Shown here piece after piece: positions 1-52,232 of a stretch of DNA of 52,232 nucleotides. Below the pieces are notes generated by a model that worked only from the letters and a program-made list of their open reading frames with translations, did not search any database and was not told the DNA's origin. This DNA comes from Cladochytrium replicatum (Eukaryota > Chytridiomycota > Chytridiomycetes > Cladochytriales > Cladochytriaceae), in assembly GCA_025526935.1 (NCBI GenBank), contig JAHLKD010000156.1, positions 1-52,232 on the forward strand, given 5' to 3'. A program made the translations under genes and the position numbers. Each line of letters begins with the position of its first letter. Position 1 is the first letter of the stretch.

Positions 1-2464
1 TAGAATGAGAACCAAACATCCTTGAAAAAGAAAGCAAAGCAAAGAAGCTGCGCGCGCTTTGGCAAGTCGATGGGAAATAGTCAGTGAACATCAAATCCAG
101 TATCTCCAAAAAAGCAACCCCAGATAACGAAATGAAGGCTTGACAGCAGAGGGTGACCATGACGAAGCAAAGGCGAATGAGCAGGAATAGGAATTTTTGT
201 GAGAATCACAGACTTTCAAGGGAGCAAAAGAAAAACCACGAGCTTGGGCAAACTGGCTCACAAACAGAGAGAAGAACCTGCATAGCATCCAAAGTAATTG
301 CAAACAAGGCCAAATCATCTGCAAATAAAAAGAATTATATCGTGGTTTGGCAGGATGAAAAGAGTGTTATAGGTGGGGCAAATGGTCGGAGGAGCCCAGG
401 TAGAGGATCAAGAAAAGTGATATAGAGAAGTGGACTGAGAACAGAACCTTGAAACAAACCTCTAAACAAATTCAAAAGCATCTGAAAAACAATTTGCAAC
501 AACCACTCTGGAAGAACAAAAATCAAACAGAGACTTCAAAACAAAAACAAATGGCAACGGTACTCCCCTAGAAGAAGCTCAGCCCAAAGAATTGCACGAT
601 TTGTGGTGTCCATAAGCTGCTTGAATATCTAAAAAACCAGCAACCCAAGGAACCTTGGCATTAGACGCACGGGAGATACATGCCTGAAGACCAAAAACAC
701 ATTCCATTCCCGAGCGGTGTGACTGAAATCCCGCTTGGGCAGCATCAAGTGGGCGTTGAGACGTGATAGCAGAATAAAGATGTGGCAACAAAGCTCGCCT
801 CAAAAATTTTTCGGGCAACACACGAAAGAGTAATGGGGCGATAATTAGTAATATCACCAAGCGTACCACGTTGCTTCCAAACTGGGTGCAAAAGCCCAAG
901 ATTCCATGAAGTGGGTGTAAGACTACTGCGAAAAATGGAGTGAGAAAGTTGCAAGAACAATGGAGCAAGAATAGCTGAAATTGGGCGATAAAGTTCTGCA
1001 GGCAGACGATCATGACCCGGGGCAGACTCCAAAGGGCAGTCCCTAATAGCTAGAACAAAGCTTCAACATCCAATGGCAGCTGAAAATCACACAGAACAAT
1101 TGAAGGTGAAACTGGGTCAGCAGCTTGAGCATTGTAGACACTAGCAAATGATCAGAATATTTGGCTAAAGACTGAGGATCAAAATCTAAACCATTAGCTG
1201 AAGTACGAAAGTTAGCGCAGCGCCGAGCATGAGACACATGTTTCAGAAGAGAAGGCACTGATGAAGAACTAGGGTCATCAAAAAAATTTGCTTTTGTCTT
1301 ACGCCTGTGTGATCTCAGAGCTGATTTGAATGCTTTGTGACTATCACGTTGGCGAGTTCTTAGAAAAGGAAGAAGAGGGTCAGAAGAATTGTGGTGAAAG
1401 AGGGAATAATAGTCACGGAATGCTGAACGAGCCTTACTACGCAACAAAGCAATCTCAGGGGGCAAAGGAGTGGTCGCTGGTGCTCTACGACGAGGTGTTG
1501 GTGGTCCCAATGTCAGAACTGCTGTTGCCTCAACAAAATCAACTATAATTTGAAATGCGGAATCAATTGCTCCCTGGGCCACTGCACGAGAAAGAGAAGT
1601 CCCCACAGGGACCTGAAGTGGTTCCAATGCTGCTGTTAGCGCCTCTGATGTTGGAGGAAGCAGAATCTTAGCAGTTTCTCTGTGCGACTTACGAATAACT
1701 TCATCCTTTAACAATCGGAGATTCCAAGAAGGTAGAGGAGGAGGCACAGTGGCCTGAGGATCTGGGCCAGCTAAAGAAAATGAACAGGTCACTGCAAAAT
1801 GGTCTGAAGGATGGGGAGCCATAGACTGGGGTTGATCATGCACTAAATAAGAGGAAGCTGTCACATAAGTAGAAGCAAAAAACAAATCAATAATTGAACT
1901 CCCTAAGTGGGAAAGAAAAGTTGGGCGACGAGCTGAAGAAGAAGCTGGGACAACCAATGAAAGTGAGTGGGCTGTAAAAAAAGGAAGAAGTGCTCTGGCA
2001 CGGGCATTAGTAACATGATCACCAGTGCTCTGAGTTCTAAAATTGAAGTCACCCATCAAAACTACTGGTGTATCCGAATTCGAAACAAATTGAGGAAAAT
2101 CAGATAATGCACCCAAACAGTCTTCCGCAGTCCAACGTGGGGGAAAATAAAAACCACCAATCACGACCTGACAAAACCTAAACCACAAACCAAACCCAGA
2201 AGGAACTGATGCAATCAACCTAAATTGATAAGTACTGCAACGATGTGGGTTAATAAGAAGAGCAACACCAGATGCCAAAGGAGCGTCTGGTGGAGGACGA
2301 GAATCAAACAACAAATACTCAGAAGAAACACTGTCTAAAGTTAACTGATGAGTTTCTGTTAAAACTAAAAAATCAAGCTGATGAGTAACAAGCCAAGCAA
2401 GTAAATCTGAAAAATCCAGAGGCAAACCTCTACAGTTGAAGGTTCCAGAACGAAAAGTCCACAT
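1..2464 (-). pseudogene. LINE-1 ORF2: APE endonuclease + reverse transcriptase, multiply frameshifted
   Basis: Begins at the ATG at 2464 (MWTFRSGTFNCRG). The endonuclease motifs are intact in the first 470 codons: TETH, GDFN, SIIDLFF and SDHF. The frame breaks near 1130-1043. RT segments then follow in alternating frames: APGHDRLPAEL and YRPITL (about 1030-745), then AAQAGFQ and FLDIQAAY (about 780-620), then the FADD-type catalytic box near 300-330. By comparison with LINE-2, at least one break is a lost T in a T run (near 585). The copy is non-functional as read. The end of the ORF lies beyond the window. Confidence 0.88.
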
Positions 2465-3845
2465 TAATTGCGAGATGTAGGTTCAGAACGCGAAGAACGG
2501 GCTAAAGAAACAGTAGCTTCAAAGTCTGCAGCAGGAAGATTAGAACGAAGATAATGAAAAACTGCAGGATCATGAGTAATACGCAAGAGGTGAGCAAATC
2601 TTTTGTGAACAGCCTTTGCTACAGCAACTTGACGTTGCTCAAGTGATTGAACAGACCCAGAACGAAGCTGCCCAGGGTCAAAAAGATCAACGGGCACCTC
2701 ATCACCTGGAAAAATGTCCTTGCGGAGCTTGTCAGCACAGTCAGAAGTACAAATAAACTCAGCAGTGTTACGCCCAATAAAACTAATATGGCGAATGTCA
2801 CGGGAAAATTGAGGGTTTCCAGAAATTCGATTAATCAGAGTGCGGAGCTGATTAAGTGGCTGACGACTAATTTCCTTAAACCTCACAGTAGCAAAACCAG
2901 CAGCACGATCACGAACAGGCTGAGGAGGATTGATCAAAATTGGTGACTCAGCCGGGTAATCAATCACCAATCTGGGTGGCCGTAGTGATCTGCGAGATAG
3001 GGGTCCACTCCAGCAACCACTGAGCGATAAAGGGCGGGTTGAGCATCTGCTTCGGCAGCTTCAATACGAACAATAGCATTTGATGCACGAGAGGCAAATT
3101 TTGCAGTGCTGAAAGGCCCAGGATTGCGAGTAGCAGGGGCAGGTGGCGGTCGGCTAGCACTCGCAACTTGAGCATAGGAAGGCACGGCAGAGACAGCAGC
3201 AGGAGGGCAGCTGATAGTTTCAACCAACGGAACTACAGCAATAGTCAATGCAGCAAAGAAGGCAGCCTCAGTCTCTGGTTCCAATACTGGGAGAAATTGC
3301 ATTGCACGAGTGAAAGCAGACATTACTAATGGATGAGATCCAGAAGTTTGAGCAGGGGCCAGCATATGCAGAGCATCCAAGAATCGGTCACGAGGAGTAG
3401 GCAAGGGAGAGGTAGCATGATTAGCTGCAGAGGCATTCTTCTCGACCCTGGCACGAGAGGCAGGTCGGCGAGTCGGGGGTGATTTTGATGCTCGACGTTT
3501 CCCTTTGGGATCAGCATCAGCAAGGGTAAGTGACATTTCGACTGTATCCTTCATGTGAACATCAACGACACTTGCGGGGGATCTTCCTCTAATTCGAGGC
3601 GGTTCTGAAGTGGATGACGCTTGGTCACGTGATTCGCGAGGAGAATTCACTTCATCTGCCCACAGAAAATTTTCTCCATCAAAGTTGCTGGGCTGAGAGT
3701 CAGGAATGTTTTCCTGAGGGGCGCGAGGGTGGGACACAGAGGGAGCACGGGAGCGAGCACGGCCAGAAGCGATGAAAATTTTTGAGGGGGGTGCGGCATG
3801 CGGCGTGTCAGGCGGCTGCGCAGGCGGAGCGCTGGGAGGCGGCAT
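2464..3845 (-). pseudogene. LINE-1 ORF1 (nucleic-acid-binding-type protein), frame broken
   Basis: ORF1 starts at the ATG at 3845 with a Pro/Ala-rich N-terminus (MPPPSAPP), followed by basic Ser/Arg-rich stretches and a structured C-terminal part. That part contains an IRHISFIGRN motif shared with LINE-3 ORF1 (IRHISFVGRN). The first frame ends at 2964, and the homologous C-terminal half continues in another frame from about 2968 to 2464, so one indel separates the halves. LINE-3 ORF1 breaks at a different, non-homologous place, which points to decay or sequence error rather than programmed shifting. No CCHC knuckle is visible. The stop (TAA) overlaps the ORF2 ATG by one base. Confidence 0.85.
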
Positions 3846-3973
3846 TGATTTGTGAGAGAGAGAGGGAGAGAGAGTGAGAGAGTGTGAGAGAGAGTGAGAG
3901 AGAGAGGGAGAGAGTGTGAGAGAGAGTGAGAGAGAGTGAGAGAGAATGACAGAGAGTGAGAGAGAGTAATGAG
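3846..3973 (-). repeat. CT-rich 5' leader of LINE-1
   Basis: A degenerate CT microsatellite on the LINE strand (GA on the plus strand), about 125 bases, between the SINE poly(A) and the ORF1 ATG. LINE-3 has a purer (CT)n in exactly the same place (47844-47952). The CT tract therefore looks like a genuine, length-variable 5' UTR of this LINE family rather than chance. Confidence 0.8.
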
Positions 3974-4269
3974 TTTTTTTTTTTTTTTTGAATGTTATAA
4001 CATGTATTGACAATGCTTAATCAGTACATGTCACCCACGTGTACTTCAACCAAGATTTGGAATCTTCAGTACTTGGGGAGCCGTGCGAGCCGTAGGAAAG
4101 AGGAGCGAAGGCAATGGCGAATCGAAGGAGGTGTGGCGCGGTACTTGCACGTGACACGATATTGCGAGAGATATATTTCGTAGGAAATTCGAATCCAGTC
4201 CCCTATAGGATTCGAACCGCGGAGTTTAGCTTCGAAAAGTCGCATTCGTACCGACTGAGCCACTATGAG
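3974..4269 (-). mobile_element. SINE copy 1 (tRNA-derived head, LINE-like tail, poly(A))
   Basis: On the minus strand: a Pol III A box (TGGCTCAGTCGG, plus coordinates 4251-4262), a perfect B box (GGTTCGAATCC, 4208-4218), a body of about 200 bases, and a 16-base A tail (3974-3989). Near-identical copies lie at 31802-32097 and 47541-47843. The 3' half contains a CTTTCCTACGGCTCGCACGG stretch that resembles the LINE 3' UTR. The tetraloop-containing anticodon region does not give a convincing functional tRNA. CTCAT occurs on both sides of the element (before AGTGG and after the A tail), a possible short target duplication. Confidence 0.88.
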
Positions 4270-4275
4270 TTTCAC

Positions 4276-4358
4276 GGGGAGATGGCCGAGTCGGTCTAAG
4301 GCGCCACGTTAAGGCCGTGGTTTCTTCGGAAGCGTGGGTTCGAATCCCACTCTCCTCA
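4276..4358 (+). tRNA. tRNA-Leu (anticodon AAG)
   Basis: All cloverleaf parts are visible. The acceptor stem GGGGAGA (4276-4282) pairs with TCTCCTC (4351-4357), with one G-T wobble and discriminator A4358. The D arm follows TGGCCGAG. The anticodon stem CCACG/CGTGG has loop TTAAGGC, so the anticodon is AAG. A class II variable arm and T arm GTGGG-TTCGAAT-CCCAC complete it. No intron. T-rich runs for Pol III termination follow near 4403. A SINE begins 6 bp upstream on the other strand. Confidence 0.95.
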
Positions 4359-31435: not shown

Positions 31436-31800
31436 GACCTTTTTAGTACTTCATAATATGTATTATTTTTCAACCAATACATATCACCTGCTGGTGCAAA
31501 GTCCAAATACAAGTGTAAAATACACGTAAATTTGCAGCACATGGGGAGCCGTGCGAGCCATAGGAAAAGTAAAATGTTTCATAACACTAAGGCATATCCA
31601 AATTAACAAAAGCAGATGAGATAAAGTCAGGAGTGGGAGACAAAACTTTGACCACATACGGTTAGGTGCACGAAGAACAAGAATGGCCTACAAAAAAGCA
31701 GGCGAATTTTTTGGTATTTTTTAAAAGTATTATTAATTTATTTTGCACATACAATGCATAACAATAATACAACTAAAGAAGATTATTATAAACCGGGGAA
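31436..31800 (-). mobile_element. Two LINE-type 3' UTR fragments
   Basis: On the minus strand, 31570-31436 carries TTTTCCTATGGCTCGCACGG then CTCCCCATGTGCTG, matching the SINE tail and, more distantly, the LINE-2 3' UTR. 31800-31718 carries TTATGCATTGTATGTGCAAA then ATAAATTAATAATA, matching the last ~50 bases of LINE-2 before its poly(A). These look like remains of older insertions in the same orientation. Confidence 0.65.
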
Positions 31801-31801
31801 A

Positions 31802-32097
31802 TTTTTTTTTTTTTTTTGAATGTTATAACATGTATTGACAATGCTTAATCAGTACATGGCACCCACGTGTACTTCAACCAAGATTTGGAATCTTCAGTAC
31901 TTGGGGAGCCGTGCGAGCCGTAGGAAAGAGGAGCGAAGGCAATGGCGAATCGAAGGAGGTGTGGCGCGGTACTTGCACGTGACACGATATTGCGAGAGAT
32001 ATATTTCGTAGGAAATTCGAATCCAGTCCCCTATAGGATTCGAACCGCGGAGTTTAGCTTCGAAAAGTCGCATTCGTACCGACTGAGGCACTATGAG
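31802..32097 (-). mobile_element. SINE copy 2
   Basis: Nearly identical to SINE copies 1 and 3, with a 16-base A tail (31802-31817), B box at 32036-32046 and A box at 32079-32090. The A box carries one change (TGCCTCAGTCGG). It lies just 3' of the LINE-2 poly(A), in the same orientation, with about 13 bases between. No matching target duplication seen. Confidence 0.88.
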
Positions 32098-32108
32098 GTC
32101 CTAGGGCT

Positions 32109-32148
<40 letters not shown>

Positions 32149-32365
32149 TATTATTATTTATTTTGCACATACAATGCATAACAAAAAACAACACCCAAAG
32201 TGCCTTACAAGATGGTCATGGACCAGCACATAGGGAAGCGCGCGCAGCATAAGGAAAACCAACAAAGCAAAACAGAGAATGTAAACTCAAACCTGTGGCT
32301 ACCCGTCAGATACTGCTAAGGTGCCAAAAAAACAGGTGAGTAATAAATAATGAGAAAAGAAAACG

Positions 32366-33788
32366 TTAAAGATCCACAAATGCAGGGCCAAAGAGGGAGT
32401 CTGGAGGAGAAACTTCTAATGGCAGACCCATACAGTGAAGCCAAATCTTATGGAGACAACGAAAAACTAGATACCACGGTGCAAGATTCACTGGGTTGAC
32501 AATGCGAAGTGGACGAAGGCCATCAATTGCAACGTCAAGCGGAAGTTGTAAAACAGGAACAGGAACAGGAGGCAACAATAGGTCAAGACGCAAACATTCT
32601 GAAACATGAGATCTAGAGAGAGTTGCAGTGCGGCAGTGACAACACTGCTTGCGGGGGTGATAAAACAAACGTCCAAGGCGATACTGCAGAAGCCTCAAGA
32701 TTGACGAAATAGGGAAGCATGGAGGAGCAATTGCTAGCGCATGAGGGTGTGCAGATGCAAGGGGAGCAAAGCTAGCAGCTATAGAACCATAGGCAGATGA
32801 GGCTACTTGGTGAAAGTGATTTGCGATAACATCAGAAGGTTTGGGAACTACAACATTTGCAGCCAGGAAGAGGAAGTGATTGTTGAAAGGGACAGGAGAA
32901 CAACGAAAGTGCTTTCCCTGGTGAAGAAAGAATGACAACATAGAGTGAACCATATCAGGGGCATCATCATCCAGCCAACGTTGAAACATCTGAAACTGCA
33001 GATATTGAAGCCGAAACTGAAGGTCAGGAAACTTAAAAAACAGTAAAACCCCAGCAATTGAAGTGGAAAATGAAAGGCGAAGAAATCGACACAAACATTG
33101 GTGAATAAAAGTCCGAACTGGTTTGCAAACAGCAACAGAGGGAAGAATAAAATAAACCAAATTCAAGCGTAGGTCGAATAAAAGACAAAAACAAATGACG
33201 AACCACAACCAGAGAATGAGAACCAAACATCCTTGAAAAAGAAAGCAAAGCAAAAGAAGCTGCGCGCGCTTTGGCAAGTCGATGGGAAATAGTCAGTGAA
33301 ACATCAAATCCAGTATCTCCAAAAAAGCAACCCAGATAACGAAATGAAGGCTTGACAGGCAGAGGTTGACCATGAAGAAGCAAAGGCGAATGAGCAGGAA
33401 TAGGAATTTTTGTGAGAATCACAGACTTCAAAGGAGCAAAAGAAAAACCACGAGCTTGGGCAAACTGGTCACAAACAGAGAGAAGAACCTGCATAGCATC
33501 CAAAGTAATTGCAAACAAGGCCAAATCATCTGCAAATAAAAAAGAATTATATCGTGGTTTGGCAGGATGAAAGAGTGTTATAGGTGGGGCAAATGGTCGG
33601 AGGAGCCCAGGTAGAGGATCAAGAAAAGTGATATAGAGAAGTGGACTGAGAACAGAACCTTGAAACAAACCTCTAAACAAATCAAAAGCATCTGAAAAAC
33701 AATTTGCAACAACCACTCTGGAAGAACAAAAATCAAACAGAGACTTCAAAACAAAAACAAATGGCAACGGTACTCCCCTAGAAAGAAG
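32366..33788 (-). CDS. LINE-2 ORF2 3' half: RT fingers-palm end, thumb, CCHC
   Basis: Enters from the truncated 5' side and reads GLFQGSVLSPLL, FLFADDLALF (catalytic FADD) and PVKPSFRYLG, to LSFIRPTLEFGLFYS. Here the homologous protein continues in the +1 frame (PSVAVCKPVRT) to the stop at 32366. The C-terminal region has a CCHC knuckle, C-x2-C-x8-H-x3-C (CCHCRTATLSRSHVSEC), about 60 residues before the end. Apart from that single +1 change at 33143, both frames are open over about 1.4 kb. LINE-3 needs the same change at the homologous codon. Fragment only, since the endonuclease and ORF1 are missing. Confidence 0.85.
33143..33143 (-). other. Candidate +1 frameshift site in LINE-2 ORF2
   Basis: Minus strand reads TTT TAT TCT T CCC TCT. 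The zero frame runs LEFGLFYS, and skipping one T gives PSVAVCKP, which aligns with the LINE-3 protein. LINE-3 has TAT TCG G CCT TCC at the same place. See findings. Confidence 0.6.
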
Positions 33789-33797
33789 TTTTCTTCA

Positions 33798-33869
33798 ACT
33801 CAGTTAGTATAGTGGCTAGTATCTCTCCCTGTCACGGAGAAGACCCGGGTTCGATTCCCGGACTGAGAG
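33798..33869 (+). tRNA. tRNA-Asp (anticodon GTC)
   Basis: Acceptor ACTCAGT (33798-33804) pairs with ACTGAGA (33862-33868), except for an A1-A72 mismatch; discriminator is G33869, usual for Asp. D arm TAGTATAGTGG, anticodon stem TCTCC/GGAGA with loop CTGTCAC (GTC), T arm CCGGG-TTCGATT-CCCGG. 72 bases, no intron. LINE-2 ends 9 bp upstream on the other strand. The first-base mismatch lies next to that junction. Confidence 0.93.
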
Positions 33870-43957: not shown

Positions 43958-45777
43958 AAGGATCGGCGGGTTTTAGGGTCTTTCAGGTCAGGTCCGGGTC
44001 CATTGACCAAATGTACCCGACCCGATTGCCGGGTTTTCATGGAAAATTTTCCGGTCGGATCTGGGTCAGGTATCAGGTCCAGTAGGAAAACCCTTCTCGT
44101 GTCAAAAATCAGACCCAAGTAAAACCCAATGTGATAGAGAAGCTAAAACGAAGCTATTGTTCTTTCTGTCCACGCGGACACTTTCCAAGAAGACGCAATA
44201 TAAGTTTTGTATGTATCAAACAATTTTGCATCACAACAGACATCGAGGCATATATTTTCTGTCCACCTGGACAATTTCTCAACTCATTGATGTACTTCAG
44301 TTATCTCTACCCAATACAACTAACCTCTCTATCAATGTTACTAGCAATAAGATTCTGTCCACCCGGACACTTTCTTAACTCATTGACGGTACTTGAGTGA
44401 TCTCTATCAAGTACAACTAACATCTCTATCAATGTTACTAGCAATAAGATTCTGTCCACCCGGACACTTTCCAAGAAGTCACAACGGAAGTTCTGTAACA
44501 AACAATTTCTACCACGACAGACCTCGAGAGCTGTGCTTTCTGTGCACCTGGACACTTAGAGTCGGTAACGTTCCAGCCACACCACAGCAAAAATGGACGC
44601 CGCCTTTGTTAAACCAAAGCGTAAGGCAGCGTCCGACGCAAGCCAAAGACTGGTGGACAGTCATCCGCTTGACACACGGAAGCGAAGTCTGCCAGCCCCC
44701 CAAATTTCAGAGGCGTCCAGCGAGGGGAACAGCATGTTGATAATGGTCTGAGAACATGTCTTATCGACCTTCTGGCTCCACTTGCATTTCGCAACCAAAC
44801 ATGTTCTCAAACCATTATCAACCTTATAGTAATCCTTCGCTATGCCGCCTCGACTACCTCTACAGTCCGACATGCTATCAACATCTGCGTCTGATGAAAG
44901 CATTGATGGTTGAACTGATCCAGCTGCAGGCTCCTGTTGCACTGAAGAGTCAGCAAAACTAACGTCGGCAGGAAGCTCTGGTGCATGCTGAGAAGCCAGG
45001 CCCAACTCGCTGGAGTCATTGGAAGAAGATGTGGAGCTCGGCTCTCGAGCGCTGTTGTTGCCACCGTGTCCTGATACACGTCTGCGTTTGTTCTGCATGC
45101 TGTTCCCCTCGCTGGACGCCTCTGAAATTTGGGGGGCTGGCAGACTTCACTTCCGTGTGTCAAGCGAATGACTGTCCACCAGTCTTTGGCTTGCGTCGGA
45201 CGCTGCCTTACGCTTTGGTTTAACAAAGGTGGCGTCCATTTTTGCTGTGGTGTGGCTGGAACGTTACTGACTCTAAGTGTCCAGTTGCACAGAAAGCACA
45301 GCTCTCGAGGTCTGTCGTGGTAGAAATTGTTTGTTACAGAACTTCCGTTGTGACTTCTTGGAAAGTGTCCGGGCGGACAGAATCCTATTGCTAGGAACAT
45401 TGATAGAGAGGTTAGTTGTATTGGGTAGAGATAACTGAAGTACGTCAATGAGTTGAGAAAGTGTCCAGGTGGACAGAAAATACATGCCTCGATGTCTGTT
45501 GTGATGCAAAATTGTTTGATACATACAAAACTTATATTGCGTCTTCTTGGAAAGTGTCCGCGTGGACAGAAAGAACAATAGCTTCGTTTGAGCTTCTCTA
45601 TCACATCGGGCTTTACTCGGGTCTGACTTTTGACCCGAGAAGGGTTTTCCTACTGGACCCGATACCCGACCCGGATCTGACCCGAAAATTTTCCATGAAA
45701 ACCCGGCACTCGGGTCGGGTACATTTGGTCAATGGACCAGGACCTGACCCGAAAGACCCTAAAACCCGCCGATCCTT
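43958..45777. mobile_element. Fold-back (inverted-repeat) hAT-like element
   Basis: Left arm 43958-44736 and right arm 45096-45777 are near-perfect reverse complements. The outer ends are AAGGATCGGCGGGTTTTAGG and its complement. The left arm is about 100 bases longer because one internal unit (about 44340-44455) is duplicated. The arms hold the 5' terminal and subterminal region and the first ~50 codons of a transposase. The 360-base spacer carries the next part of that ORF on the minus strand. The structure is a transposon 5' end joined to an inverted copy of itself. Confidence 0.85.
44661..45270 (-). pseudogene. BED-finger/hAT transposase N-terminus inside the fold-back
   Basis: From the ATG near 45271 (MDATFVKPKRKAASDASQRL), an Arg/Ser-rich stretch, then a Ser/Ala-rich linker, then a segment with YYKVDNGLRTCLVAKCKW, a Cys pair spaced as C-x4-C as in a BED-type finger. 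The right-arm copy has a TGA where the left arm has CGA (near 45148). The ORF runs into the left arm at about 44736, where the homology to a transposase is lost. Not functional as read. Confidence 0.55.
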
Positions 45778-46379: not shown

Positions 46380-47458
46380 CAGAAGCTGATTTAGGCTGTT
46401 CCACCTATCAACTTGTGATTGTTTAGTGGAGTTTTATACATCTTTACGATAGTGTTTGTAAATATCACACTGTCCACACAGACACAAAATGTTTATGTAA
46501 TATCTTTTTCTACCTTTAGTTCAATCACTCTTATCCTGAGCAGCAAGAACCCAGCGGGTCAAGGTCGGGTACAGGTTTCAACCACTTCGCGTCCAGGTTT
46601 ATCTAGCTGCAGTGACCCGGCTGGTGCGTGGACAAACATGACCTGATATAAGCGTTTTACTTGGGTTGCCTCTGAAACCCTAACCTGACCTGGGACCGCT
46701 GAACCTTAGTGCCAAACAGAAAATCTCAGGGCCCAAAGACACACACTATCAACCCCAATATACCCTAGGCTGTCCAAAACAGTGCAAGTCCCAACAACTA
46801 AGATATAAACAAACACTGTCAGAAGTTATAAGGAAAACAAGGACATAAGGCATGGAGGTTCAACTCACAAAACTCACAATTAGCAAGGCTTATACAAAAA
46901 CATAAACGTAAAAACTTGCCATAAAAATTGGCCCAGATTTTCACACTCTGAATACCATCTGTGCCACAACATCAATGTCAATCAATGTCTTCATGTTACA
47001 AACCACACGGGTGTCATAATAATTTTCCTGCGCTCTGAACAAACTTATATGAATTCCATGATCAGATCTTGTATAATTTGTTATTGACCCAAAATTTCTT
47101 TCTCACCTTGAACATTACAAAGTTTGCCAATAATGATGACCTACTATCATTACAGCATATGTTTCAAAGTCAAGGTCCACGACTTCTTCAGAAAGTGCAA
47201 CGAAATGCTCCATATTTTCATCCGGTTCATCATATTTAACTGGTATGTCAAGGAATTATCAACAAAAGTATGATTGGGGCAATTACAGTCAGTAAATTCA
47301 TAGCGTGTGCGGGGTTTCATAATTCCTCTACTGCGTCTTGTTCCGGGGAGGACGTACTTCACAACATACATGTGGACAAGCAAAAGTGGGAGACCTTAAA
47401 AAGAGCCAACCATTGGGTTGATTCCCAATGGGAAATTTATCACCTTATTTTACGGGAA
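46380..47458. other. AT-rich spacer with transposon scraps
   Basis: A single degenerate TGTCC-N4-GGACA palindrome near 46471 and GGGTC-rich sequence at 46550-46700 resemble the hAT-like ends. 46740-47458 holds nothing recognisable. Confidence 0.5.
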
Positions 47459-47532
47459 TGCTCCATACAGGGATCGAACCTGTGACCTTGGCGTTATTAG
47501 CACCACGCTCTAACCAACTGAGCTAATAGAGC
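47459..47532 (-). tRNA. tRNA-Ile (anticodon AAT)
   Basis: On the minus strand the acceptor GCTCTAT (47532-47526) pairs with ATGGAGC (47466-47460), with one wobble, and discriminator A is at 47459. D arm TAGCTCAGTTGG, anticodon stem TGGTG/CGCCA with loop CTAATAA (AAT), T arm ACAGG-TTCGATC-CCTGT. No intron. SINE copy 3 starts 7-8 bp upstream on the plus strand. Confidence 0.95.
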
Positions 47533-47540
47533 ACAACCCC

Positions 47541-47843
47541 TCTTAGTGGCTCAGTCGGTACGAATGCGACTTTTCGAAGCTAAACTCCGCGGTTCGAATC
47601 CTATAGGGGACTGGATTCGAATTTCCTACGAAATATATCTCTCGCAATATCGTGTCACGTGCAAGTACCGCGCCACACCTCCTTCGATTCGCCATTGCCT
47701 TCGCTCCTCTTTCCTACGGCTCGCACGGCTCCCCAAGTACTGAAGATTCCAAATCTTGGTTGAAGTACACGTGGGTGACATGTACTGATTAAGCATTGTC
47801 AATACATGTTATAACATTCAAAAAAAAAAAAAAAAAAAAAAAA
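47541..47843 (+). mobile_element. SINE copy 3 (tRNA-derived head, LINE-like tail, poly(A))
   Basis: A box TGGCTCAGTCGG at 47547-47558 and B box GGTTCGAATCC at 47591-47601, about 33 bases apart, as in a tRNA gene. The body runs to AACATTC, then a 24-base A tail (47820-47843). It is near-identical to copies 1 and 2. The (CT)n leader of LINE-3 follows the A tail directly. CTCT on both sides could be a minimal target duplication or chance. Confidence 0.9.
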
Positions 47844-47868
47844 CTCTCTCTCTCTCTCTCTCTCTGTG

Positions 47869-47952
<84 letters not shown>
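47844..47952 (+). repeat. (CT)n microsatellite, LINE-3 5' leader
   Basis: About 108 bases of CT dinucleotides, with one GTGTAT interruption near 47864, between the SINE A tail and the LINE-3 ORF1. A more degenerate CT tract occupies the same place in LINE-1. Confidence 0.92.
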
Positions 47953-47958
<6 letters not shown>

Positions 47959-47970
47959 ACACAAAAATCA

Positions 47971-49363
47971 ATGCCGCCTCCCAGCGCTCCGCATGCGCAG
48001 CCGCCTGATGCGCCGCATGCCGCGCCGCCCGCCGCACCCCCCGCTGTGCCCCCTGATGGACTTTCTGGTGGCACCGTGATTTTTGAGGCCCGTTCGCACC
48101 CCCGTGCCTCCTCTGTTGAAAATTCCGCTCCACAGCTTCCATTCTCCGCTCCTGCCTCTCCAATTCACTGGGCCGATGATGTGAATATGGGGGAGGATGA
48201 AAATGCCGAATCACGTGACTTCCGATCACGTGACCGACGCGCCAAAAGACCTGCTGAACATGAATTGCCCCGTGGTCGCTCCCGTTCTCGTTCCCGATCA
48301 CATCTGCCGGGTGTCCGGGTTCTTGCTGCTGTGGCTGCTCCCTCGAGTGTTGCATCTCTGGCCGATCTCCGTGTCGTTCTCACTCAGATGCGATCTGTTT
48401 GTGCAACCTTTGATCCGTTGGCGATGCTGGATCCTATGCTTGCACATTTGCCGAGGGACACTCCTGCTGAATTTTTTAGTGTTTGTCGTGATATGGCCGA
48501 GGATCTGGTGGGTCGCTTTGGGAGGCCGCTGCCTTCGCCTTCACCTCCAGTTGCCCCAGTCTCCCGCCATGATGATGTGGCTGCGCCTGTGTGCCTTCCC
48601 CCTAGACAACTGCATGGTAATCCTCCAATTCAGGACGATCTTGGGAACTCTGGTGCTCCTGGCCCTCGCCCCCCGTCTACCTGCCCCACGTGGACCTCGT
48701 GGTCCACGCACTTATGCCGCTGCTGCTGCCAATGCCCGTGCCCGTGTGCTTGAGAGTCTCCCCACACTGAGTGCTGAATCTCGTACAGAAGCTGTCAGGA
48801 CTGCCCTTGCTGGTCGTGACCCCACTTCGAATGTCAGCCTTCGTGGCCCTCGGCCTGTCGTATTCTATCCTCCGACCTCTCCGCTGCTGGTCTCCCCACC
48901 TGCTGATCTTCAGGCCCGTGTGGATGATTTGACCACTGTGTACATCAAGGACATCATGAGACAGCGGCTCGGCTTTGTGCGGACCATGCTGAGGGCTCTC
49001 TTGGGCGATGAGGTGGTGCGTGGTATCCGCCACATCAGTTTCGTTGGTCGCAACATTGCTTCCTTTATCTGTATTCGCTCAACCGCAATTGCTCTCCGTG
49101 CGCACTTCTCCACCCAGGAAGCTTCCACTGACGAATCAAACCCTGACTTTCTTCGCCGAGCCTCTACTCTGCCTTTGGAGCAGCGGGAGGCTGCGGTCAG
49201 GGAAGTTGTCCACAAGAGATATGCACATATCCTCAGTTCAGTTACTGATCCTGCTATTTTCCTGTATGTCCGTGGTCAGCTCCCCATGGATGCTCAGGAA
49301 ACTGTGCTGGACAGTGCCCGCGGGATTGCGCGTCAGCCTCGCTCAACCCATCTTCGTCAATGA
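47971..49363 (+). CDS. LINE-3 ORF1, one frame break
   Basis: ATG at 47971 (MPPPSAPHAQPPDAPHAAPP) in the same context (AATCAATG) as LINE-1 ORF1. A Pro/Ala-rich start is followed by an Arg/Ser stretch (RGRSRSRSRS) and a helical middle part. Near 48665, at a run of six C, the coding frame moves +1; the second frame gives RTYAAAAANARA, then DIMRQRLGFVRTM and IRHISFVGRN, ending THLRQ at 49363. LINE-1 is continuous at this site, so a one-base error or mutation in the C run is likely. ORF1 proteins of LINEs bind the element RNA. No CCHC knuckle seen. Confidence 0.82.
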
Positions 49364-52232
49364 TTAGTGTTCGAGTTGGTACCTTCAATTGTCGCAATTT
49401 GAGCTTTGGAGTTCTTGATTCACTGTTTCGTTTTATGCGCGCAAATCACATTGTTTTTCTGCTCCTGACTGAAACACACCTTTTTCCTTTAGACCCGCTG
49501 CCTTCTCCAGATTTGATTTTTGACACTCGTTTTTCTCCTGGGTCATCGGGTACACGACGGGCTGGTGTGGGAGTCTTGATCAATCGCAGTCTTTGTAGAG
49601 CTTCTGATTTCCGTCTCGTTTCTAGTTATGGTGGCACCTCTCTATGGTTTACATTTCGTGGGCTTTTGGTTGGAGGGTATTATTTGCCTCCATGTGGTAT
49701 TGCTCAGGACCCCTTCCTTGAAGAGTTTATTGCTTCACTTCCTCAACATGTCCCGTCGTCTCCGTGCCCTGTTCTTTTGTTGGGCGATTTCAATGCCCGT
49801 TTTTTAGCTACTGGTGATCATTCTTCAAATCGTAGGGGTAGGTTGTTTGAGCAATTTATTTCTGCCGCTAGTTTCTCTCTAGTTAAGCACCCTTCCTGTC
49901 ATAACCCCACATTTTCTTCTCGCAATGGTGACTCCATTATCGACTTGTTGTTTGTCAATCCTCTGCTTCAATGTGATCCTATTTCTTACATAGTTCATAG
50001 TCGTCTAGCCGACGGCGAGTTTATGCCTTGGGCTTCTGACCATTTTCCGGTTACAGCTGTTTTTTCTTTTGCTCCTCCCAATGCCAGCGCTCCCTCTGCT
50101 GCACCCCCCCACAAGCGCTGGGCTGCTCATCTGTTGCGTGAACCTGCTGTCTTTCAAGCAATGGAGGATGTGGGACATTTGTTTTTTGATCCCACCCTTG
50201 CTGATGTCAATGCTTCACTCAGTCCAATTTTAGAAGCTCCCGCCTTTGCCCAAATGTCTGTGGATGTTGCACAGGGATGTATTGACTCTGCATTGGATAT
50301 TATTTTGTCCTTTGTTACTTCATGTGCTGCTTGTGTCATTGGACCCCCCAGTTTAGTTCGCCGTCGCCCTGCCCTGCCATTGTTGCCGCCGCATTTAGTG
50401 GCCTTGCGACGGAGCTACTTACTTGCTCATAAGCACTATTTATCTGTTTCTTCCTGTGATGATCCTGATCCTGGTTTAGTTGAGTATTGCCGCTTGGAGC
50501 GTGACCGGCTATCGCGTGAGCGTGTCAAAGCTTTTCGTACTTGGTCTCTTTCTCAGCGAGCTCGAGAGGCTTCTGGCGACAATATGTTTAGTTCTTCTCC
50601 TAGTTCTTTAACCGAGGTTAGCAAAGTTCTTTCCACCGCGCGTAGGTGTCATCAACGGCGCTCAGCTGCAAGTGGTTTATTGTCTGATCCTGCCTCTTTA
50701 TCTCATTATCGCAATCACTTTGCCTCCGTTTATCAGACTCAGTTTGCACAATCCTCTGCCAGTGCAGAACACGTTTGTCTACATGCGCTGAATGATTCTG
50801 TGTCAGTTAGTGTTAGTGACTTTGTTTGTGCTATTCGTTCTTCCCCAAACAACTCTGCTCCTGGCCCAAACCATATTCCAGCTGAGTTATTTAAGCCGTT
50901 AGCTTCTGATGTTGCTATCCTTTTTGTTCAACTTTCAAACGCTATTTTCCGTTCAGGTTTGTCGCCCTCTGCCTGGAATGCTGGCTTGTTGTTACCTGTT
51001 TGGAAGAATAAGGGTTCCATTGGTGATATTAGTCAGTACCGCCCCATTACTTTAACCAATGTTGATAGAAAAATCTTTGAGCGTACCCTGCTTCCTATGC
51101 TTGTAGCTCATGTTGGTAAACTTGATCCCGCCCAAGCTGGTTTCCAGGCCAATCGTTCAGGTGTTGAGTGTGTTTTTGCATTAGATGCTACCCTTCGACG
51201 GGCTTCCCGCACTGCTCTGCCTTATTGTGTTACTTTCTTAGATATTAAAGCAGCGTATGATACTGTGCATAGGCCTCTTTTGTGGGAACGTCTTCGTCAA
51301 TTTCCCAGAATTCCAAACCGTTTGATCTCTGTTTTGATGAGTATGTTTGATCGTTGTTCTTCTCAGGTTGTTATAGAGAATCGTTCTTCTGATTGTTTTT
51401 CGCTTCCACGAGGTCTTTTTCAAGGTTCTGTTTTGTCTCCGTTCTTGTGCTCAGTTTTCATCAATCCTTTAGCACAGCTCCTTCGTCGTGAATCTTCTCA
51501 TCTTGCTAGGTTTTCTTATAACACTCCTGTTTTCAATTCGTTGTTTTTTGCTGATGACATAGCTTTGTTTTCTGCCACCCCTGAGCAAGCCCAACGTGCA
51601 TTGAAAATTTGTGAAGATTTTGCTTTAGCTTCTCATTTTGTGTTTTCACCTTCAAAGTGTGCTGTGTTATCTTCTCAACGGTTACCCACCCCCTTGAAGC
51701 TTCATGGCTCTGCCCTCCCTGTCAAGGTTTCATTTAGATACCTTGGTCACTATTTTACTATTGCAGGGTTTGATCTTGCTGCAACTATTGATCATCGCTT
51801 AGAGAAAGCTCGTGCCTCATTGTATCTTTTTGCACCTTATGTCTCGTACTTTGGTGGGTCTGCTCCTCGTGTTGCCAGGTTGTTGTTTTTGTCTTTTATT
51901 AGACCTTCACTTGAGTTTGGTTTAGCAACTTATTCGGCCTTCCACTGCTCAGCTTCAGGTACTCGAGCGTTTTTGTTATCATGCACTGTGTCGTCTGTTT
52001 TCGATAGCCCATACCACTTCGCGTGTTGGTTTGTTGCTGTTAGCGCAAATTCCTACTTTTGAGTTCAGGCTGAAGTACCTTCAGGCACGTATGTTTGCTC
52101 GCTGGTCTAGTGATTCCAGCCCTCTGTTACCAGCTGCTGTGTTGCAATTCTATCGGTCATCTCCAGTCGGTTATGGTTCATCTCCTTATTTTTCCGCTTG
52201 TCACAATGATCTCATTGTTCCTATGCCTGTTT
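49360..52232 (+). CDS. LINE-3 ORF2: APE endonuclease + reverse transcriptase
   Basis: The ATG at 49360 overlaps the ORF1 stop (ATGA). The endonuclease covers about residues 1-230: GTFNCRN, TETH, LLGDFNARF, SIIDLLFVNP and WASDHFPVT, all catalytic positions present. After a linker, the RT spans about residues 500-830: SAPGPNHIPAELF, YRPITLTNVDRKIFE, AQAGFQANRSGVECVF, FLDIKAAYDTVHRPLLW, GLFQGSVLSPF, FFADDIALF (catalytic FADD) and PVKVSFRYLGHYF. The zero frame ends at 52062. The homologous thumb region continues in the +1 frame from 51938 (RPSTAQLQV, then RLKYLQARMFARW) to the window end. The CCHC region lies beyond the window. Confidence 0.92.
51937..51937 (+). other. Candidate +1 frameshift site in LINE-3 ORF2
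   Basis: ACT TAT TCG G CCT TCC ACT. Zero frame ends the conserved block LSFIRPSLEFGLATYS; the +1 frame gives PSTAQLQVLERF, aligning with LINE-2 after its own +1 change. See findings. Confidence 0.6.

Follow-up and report, generated by a model that had tools for sequence, protein, structure and literature searches.

Divergent non-LTR retroelements lie a few base pairs upstream of tRNA genes in the chytrid fungus Cladochytrium replicatum

Most of the sampled tRNA genes of Cladochytrium replicatum are bordered, a few base pairs upstream of the mature tRNA 5′ end, by retroelements without long terminal repeats (non-LTR elements) that point away from the gene. In the stretch of 52,232 nucleotides analyzed here (contig JAHLKD010000156.1, C156, of assembly GCA_025526935.1, which comprises 50,508,147 bases in 198 contigs; hereafter, the window), ARAGORN calls three tRNA genes, Leu(aag), Asp(gtc), and Ile(aat), and in all three the end of a non-LTR element lies 5–9 bp upstream and is oriented away from the tRNA, as a sequence-only reading of the window had claimed. 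Across the genome, members of three families of long interspersed nuclear elements (LINE-A, LINE-B, and LINE-C) or of one family of short interspersed nuclear elements (SINE) are found within 400 bp upstream in 59 of 61 sampled tRNA genes; measured from the elements, the samples give a sharp peak at 4–13 bp and one orientation, with few copies neither tRNA-adjacent nor stacked on another element. This is the opposite of the outcome that would have refuted the sequence-only reading, namely most copies remote from tRNA genes and in either orientation, without a peak at 5–10 bp. Target-primed reverse transcription at A/B-box promoters, steered by the RNA polymerase III (Pol III) initiation complex assembled there, is quite likely the route by which LINE families A–C and the SINE insert.

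The features of the window that bear on this point are the following (ORF, open reading frame):

4276..4358, + strand: tRNA-Leu (AAG), target gene 1 (ARAGORN)
3974..4269, − strand: SINE-1, tRNA-like head 6 bp from tRNA-Leu, A-tail distal
1..3973, − strand: LINE-A copy 1, stacked behind SINE-1, with 5′ leader (CT repeat), ORF1, and the portion of ORF2 that encodes the APE endonuclease; continues past the window start
33798..33869, + strand: tRNA-Asp (GTC), target gene 2 (ARAGORN)
32111..33788, − strand: LINE-A copy 2, 5′-truncated, 9 bp from tRNA-Asp, with 3′ A-tail
31802..32101, − strand: SINE-2, stacked on LINE-A copy 2, from which a short linker separates it
31728..31773, − strand: 3′-end fragment of a further LINE-A copy, deeper in the tRNA-Asp stack (93% match to query 354–397)
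31440..31600, − strand: decayed LINE-B-type 3′ end, deepest noted piece of the tRNA-Asp stack (library entry tailB)
47458..47533, − strand: tRNA-Ile (AAT), target gene 3 (ARAGORN; Rfam RF00005)
47539..47843, + strand: SINE-3, with A box TGGCTCAGTCGG and B box GGTTCGAATCC (by eye) and A-tail, head 5–7 bp from tRNA-Ile
47844..52232, + strand: LINE-B copy, with 5′ leader (CT repeat), ORF1 from 47971, and ORF2 from 49360 (APE endonuclease and reverse transcriptase); continues past the window end

The elements of the window form stacks: behind both SINE-1 and SINE-3 lies a LINE in which the CT leader and the start of ORF1 are preserved, and at tRNA-Asp the order outward is a truncated LINE, a SINE, and older LINE pieces. 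Here, SINE-2 is stacked on LINE-A copy 2, with no tRNA directly beside it, and tailB has matches of 74–93% at other tRNA loci. SINE-1 has CTCAT as its likely target-site duplication, and SINE-3 starts at 47539/47540. One correction to the sequence-only reading concerns the families: SINE-1 and SINE-3 are one family and the window LINEs are two (A and B), a third (C) being found elsewhere. By eye, the first 1–2 bases of the tRNA-Asp at 33798 differ from those of the tRNA-Asp in a second locus (L016; sampled loci and contigs are designated L and C, respectively), a difference that the LINE may have introduced into the acceptor end of the window copy when it inserted.

Genome-wide, the tRNA sample was obtained with the Rfam tRNA model: of its 2278 first-look candidates, 63 were scored and 62 places resulted, one of which, at a contig end and without upstream sequence, was dropped. 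The first element match reads outward in 59 of 59 tRNA genes (four of them called from the CT run at the LINE leader), and its gap is at most 20 bp in 39 of the 61 tRNAs (22 of these at 6–10 bp) and at most 100 bp in 56; these counts are partly dependent, with near-identical flanks in L124/L127 and L137/L138. The two tRNAs without a match in 400 bp are L039, with an outward LINE at 287 bp, and L034, with none in 1450 bp. In the 30 tRNAs for which both 1450-bp flanks were compared, an element was present upstream in 29 and downstream in 2 (L034 and L053).

The same picture emerges when the SINE is taken as the starting point. A 45-base pattern of its head has 111 matches in the genome, 100 of them listed, and 102 heads were parsed (99 listed, plus 3 from fetched stretches). 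Thirty-six adjoin a divergent ARAGORN tRNA at a gap of 4–13 bp (one at 20), the tRNAs spanning 27 isotype/anticodon classes, and no same-strand tRNA was found in the 300-base flanks of the 102 heads (one without flank). A further 49 heads directly abut an A-tail, of LINE-A type in 29 cases, of LINE-B type in 10, and of a SINE in 10; four are head-to-head with a LINE leader, 12 are of other kinds, and the one without flank in the parse lies, on further look, behind a LINE-B-type tail. The other kinds include window SINE-2; two heads beside tRNA-like sequence uncalled by ARAGORN or Rfam (L030 and L118); one whose tRNA-Cys lies at a slightly greater distance (L032); one separated from tRNA-Ser by a scrap of LINE sequence (L117); three that adjoin a tRNA-like repeat (L015, L076, and L107); one head-to-head with a truncated LINE-B (L080); one behind a tRNA-Cys-like retrocopy with an A-tail (L104); and the pair L110/L113, described below. 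At the last listed head (C135:27409, L151), next to tRNA-Leu, only an A-tail and about 8 bp of LINE-A are left between the SINE and the tRNA.

Target-site duplications could be assessed in the 89 of 102 SINEs with a readable 3′ flank, from which the 13 flanks starting with a LINE leader or SINE head were dropped. In the remaining 76, the mean shared prefix was 2.78 versus 2.06 in permutations, a value reached in 0 of 2000, and prefixes of at least 4 bp occurred in 18 versus 5.7 expected, although 2 of the 18 belong to a tandem (L098) and are not target-site duplications; for all 89, the means were 3.20 and 2.26. That tandem (C43:330461-331420) is a head-to-tail array in which identical TTCC linkers, three in number, join four SINEs, and it is more like the product of unequal crossing-over than of four separate insertions. 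In the 5′ flank of the SINE at C87:229847 (L104), a tRNA-Cys-like 3′ part with its own A-tail is visible by eye within the stack, and is a probable tRNA retrocopy.

The LINEs obey the same rule. The leader/ORF1-start pattern has 181 matches in the genome, the first of which are listed, and the sample of 43 was made up of 40 listed away from earlier loci and 3 later ones: a divergent tRNA lies 7–21 bp from 11 of them, 26 come directly after an A-tail belonging to a different copy, and 6 are of other kinds, among them one beside a tRNA-like remnant (L171); no same-strand tRNA was found beside any of the 43. LINEs truncated at the 5′ end stop at the same distance from the tRNA as leader-bearing copies, which argues that the spacing is set by the target. 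In two of the tail-abutting LINEs (L164 and L183), an apparent tRNA 5′ fragment lies, by eye, between the A-tail and the LINE, as would be seen if some insertions gave rise to long target duplications that extend into the tRNA. Chance was evaluated under a generous null, with all 2278 first-look candidates counted as tRNA genes, a 20-bp window, and one orientation: 36 SINEs near a divergent tRNA were observed versus 0.046 expected of 101 (P about 1e-93), and 11 of the first 40 LINE leaders gave P about 1e-27. Both values assume independent insertions and overstate the strength, since some loci look like segmental duplicates (e.g., L020/L021 and L137/L138).

Regarding the families themselves, LINE-B ORF2 contains PF03372 and PF14529 (APE endonuclease) as well as PF00078 (RVT_1), and among named solved structures it comes closest to those of human L1 ORF2p (E about 6e-23); LINE-A contains PF03372 and PF14529, with PF00078 in copy 2. 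The two are 38% identical over the endonuclease half of ORF2, which points to separate lineages with one target habit. LINE-C, defined by location and 5′ sequence only, was recognized by this common 5′ sequence in 18 loci, or 16 distinct places (L010/L011 and L008/L135 overlap), and starts near tRNA genes in L006, L026, L033, L134, L142, and L144. The four C-terminal frames of LINE-A and LINE-B, from single and partly broken copies, gave no RNase H family at E up to 1, and show by eye a CxxC...H...C pattern without a Pfam match. The ORF1 pieces of both families gave no Pfam match either, and have in common a WAD-D/E-VN stretch (E 0.005). No LTRs or integrase as in Ty3/gypsy elements were found; the elements show A-tails, 5′ truncation, and an APE endonuclease. 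The SINE has a tRNA-like head with A and B boxes (by eye), an A-tail, and the short target-duplication signal, as tRNA-derived SINEs do, and 36 of 46 listed rows are 100% identical over at least 285 bases (best 40 of 138 candidates scored), indicating that it moved recently. A search for it in plasmid records gave no match.

In the proposed mechanism, insertion would take place at or just beside the Pol III start, mostly 4–15 bp upstream of where the mature tRNA begins; this site agrees with the region in which Pol III usually starts, which precedes the mature tRNA by about 10 bp (PMC5911963, table). The element ribonucleoprotein would most likely be recruited by the assembled TFIIIB/TFIIIC complex rather than by tRNA sequence, and the first nick would fall on the tRNA non-template strand, just upstream of the start, and serve as primer; this strand is suggested by the A-tail being the distal end, given the polarity of target-primed reverse transcription. 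New insertions would enter the same place and push older copies outward, giving rise to stacks in which nearly all copies point away, and with insertions piling up at one site, the SINE heads that abut A-tails are to be expected. The SINE, which may use the LINE machinery, would offer a further landing site with each copy through its own A/B boxes, and head-to-head LINE/SINE pairs would result.

Such pairs carry weight for the nature of the target. By BLAST, LINE copies lie head-to-head a few base pairs from SINE heads in four independent cases, with a LINE-A leader in L003 and L020/L021, a LINE-B leader in L096, and in L080 a LINE-B that is 100% identical to the library entry and cut short at its position 3258; because these LINEs sit at the SINE's own promoter, the targets seen appear to be A/B-box promoters and not tRNA sequence as such. 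The tRNA-like repeat of L015, L076, and L107 has a B box (by eye), and a SINE is found near the same place beside all three, with 5′ truncations that differ; the SINEs are therefore probably independent events. This repeat gave no Rfam tRNA match at E 0.1, and is possibly another Pol III gene or SINE family. Rfam, applied to the odd flanks of 12 sources (L015, L076, L107, L030, L118, L171, and six others), returned one weak unrelated match (E 0.031), and a tRNA identity for the repeat and for the remnants in L030, L118, and L171, which neither Rfam nor ARAGORN calls, was set aside.

Several observations weigh against guidance by the Pol III complex in its plainest form. None of the six 5S genes read (eight listed), and neither of the two U6 genes, has an element on its available upstream stretch, also when compared with the full element library including LINE-C; the 5S sample is small, several copies are at contig ends, and L152 offers only 235 bp upstream, with inverted LINE pieces about 500 bp downstream. 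TRE5-A, in contrast, uses 5S genes as well (PMC5911963), and Ty3 is reported to use all kinds of Pol III gene. A single guide for every Pol III gene is thus, on these small numbers, not the most economical reading. The model predicts that the innermost element of a stack is the youngest; this holds in 8 of 12 stacks, which is not significant (sign test p 0.39, Wilcoxon 0.077), and a minority of deeper stack matches point inward, one each in L053 and L059. Some copies have no Pol III site in the stretch seen: the SINEs of L110/L113, which count as a single duplicated event and lie behind a piece of LINE-A in inverted orientation; LINE leader L189, which has no explanation; L165, where a SINE ends about 108 bp before; and L203, a second leader inside the LINE of L197. 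LINE leaders L167 (next to an inverted LINE-B) and L193 (cut into a SINE) also fit no Pol III site seen, and a minority of the 49 SINE heads and 26 LINE leaders that abut tails is traced down to its tRNA. A more specific version of the model, with even chances of being right, is a self-amplifying targeting in which diverged LINE families and the SINE share an A/B-box docking site that the SINE itself carries, tRNA genes being near-saturated and 5S and U6 genes spared; the tether would then be TFIIIC-dependent or specific for type-2 promoters, unlike that of Ty3.

Position, orientation, and target class all favor Pol III guidance, one of the two guides suggested in the sequence-only reading. 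The other, passive entry into open chromatin, the tRNA start being the most exposed DNA, fares poorly: tRNA genes are indeed nucleosome-depleted and the SINE gap varies in width by several base pairs, but the fixed orientation, with no same-strand case among SINEs or LINE leaders, the restriction to the upstream side, the narrow 4–13 bp window, and the absence of elements from the 5S and U6 genes read all make this explanation unlikely. Under passive entry, insertions at open Pol II promoters would be expected as well. A little less likely still is an APE domain that reads a short motif common to tRNA 5′ flanks. Strictly specific non-LTR families do exist, including some for tRNA-Pro, -Arg, and -Glu genes (PMC4640811), but the genes targeted here belong to 27 isotype/anticodon classes, no common flank motif is evident by eye (no motif search was made), and the site lies outside the conserved tRNA sequence.

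Two further explanations are both very improbable. If insertion were random and selection kept only the harmless copies beside tRNA genes, neither the spacing of 4–13 bp with one orientation, common to LINE scraps and 300-bp SINEs, nor the tail-to-head stacks would be expected, and most of the SINEs listed (36 of 46 rows, among the best 40 of 138 candidates) are, by their identity, young. Joint movement or duplication of a tRNA with its element finds some basis in L137/L138, L124/L127, and L020/L021, which share flanks and element and show that some segmental duplication exists, as well as in the tRNA-Cys-like retrocopy; nevertheless, the tRNAs, the truncation points, and the gap sequences differ, which, together with the short target duplications, shows that there were separate insertions. 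Survivorship, joint movement, and recognition of naked sequence were set aside on the evidence of spacing and orientation, of separate insertions, and of many target classes, respectively.

Among the closest known counterparts is NLTR-A of Dictyostelium purpureum, a non-LTR element for which Spaller et al. (2016, PMC5006619) give a location 2–6 bp upstream of the mature tRNA, with APE and reverse transcriptase in ORF2 (PMC5911963); the earlier statement that precedents occur at other distances was thus not quite right. The likeness lies in the position directly upstream of tRNA genes and in the ORF2 domains, whereas the SINE gap here, 4–13 bp (one 20), overlaps that of NLTR-A and is wider and shifted; NLTR-A carries an RNase H domain, which was not found in the LINE-A/LINE-B frames; and a SINE shares the site here with three LINE families, while the word SINE occurs 0 times in PMC5006619. 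D. discoideum TRE5-A lies upstream of tRNA genes in opposite orientation at about 44–54 bp (PMC5911963). The elements here are alike in being upstream, in opposite orientation, with APE, reverse transcriptase, and two ORFs, the zinc finger being only a by-eye pattern; however, the TRE5 distance of about 40–54 bp is matched neither by the SINE nor by the LINE leaders (7–21 bp), and TRE5-A also uses 5S genes, none of the six read here having an element on its upstream stretch. TRE5-A is tethered through ORF1, which binds TFIIIB (TBP/Brf1/Bdp1). In D. discoideum, 61% of tRNA genes have at least one TRE, upstream or downstream (PMC5006619); the 59 of 61 sampled here have their element upstream.

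Restriction-like endonucleases are characteristic of NeSL-1_TV, LIN15_SM, and LIN25_SM. These elements, placed near the NeSL clade and with planaria among their hosts, are each reported to be specific for one tRNA isotype (PMC4640811), whereas the elements here are of the APE type and use many isotypes. Yeast Ty3 and Dictyostelium DGLT-A insert at or near the Pol III start in both orientations, Ty3 via TFIIIB (PMC5911963), but they are LTR retrotransposons with an integrase, in contrast to the non-LTR elements of fixed orientation described here. With regard to the SINE, the sampled copies occur either at the start of a Pol III gene or within a stack, L110/L113 being the one duplicated exception; ordinary SINEs, in contrast, are dispersed. 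Generally, tRNA-derived SINEs have A and B boxes, an A-tail, and short target duplications. Among fungi, no tRNA targeting is described for Yarrowia Ylli in the part of PMC5014426 available, targeting is not the subject of PMC6875170 as far as its available part goes, and no non-LTR or SINE case of this kind was found in the literature at title and abstract level, most subscription papers being outside the search. The targeting of tRNA genes by non-LTR elements is known as such; within the limits of the search, the new features are its use by several families, the presence of a SINE among the targeted elements, the near-saturation of tRNA genes, and the host.

Other features were observed beside these elements. 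A large palindromic element at window 43958–45777, with 417-nt arms of 95% complementarity and a nested 348-nt pair, looks like a DNA transposon, and a similar sequence is found, by eye, behind LINE-C in L033. L039, L041, L157, and perhaps L159 share a further repeat; its neighbors are a tRNA-Val, a stack at a tRNA-Lys, a 5S gene, and, in the doubtful case, a U6 gene. In the stack of the tRNA-Lys at C66:264748, a U6-like piece joined to a LINE-A 3′ end is followed by LINE-B (L160, C66:265138-265226); this third U6 match, a retrocopy of 34.5 bits and below the family cut-off, is reminiscent of the U6 retrocopies that LINE machinery produces. In the genome, chitin synthase 1 has 22 matches and the ciliary ParcG family has 8; the first family is linked to fungi and the second to cilia, and this content is in keeping with a flagellate fungus.

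The targeting of tRNA genes by non-LTR elements has so far been worked out mainly in social amoebae, and in C. replicatum the safe-haven strategy is seen independently and in a stronger form, with three LINE families and a SINE close to the start at 59 of 61 sampled tRNAs. How a tRNA gene copes when the DNA upstream of it is replaced is a question that follows from this. Given the sharp peak and the high occupancy, it can be tested directly whether TFIIIB, TFIIIC, or the open transcription bubble steers an APE-type LINE; and if the system is indeed self-amplifying, each SINE insertion would make a new target next to the old one.
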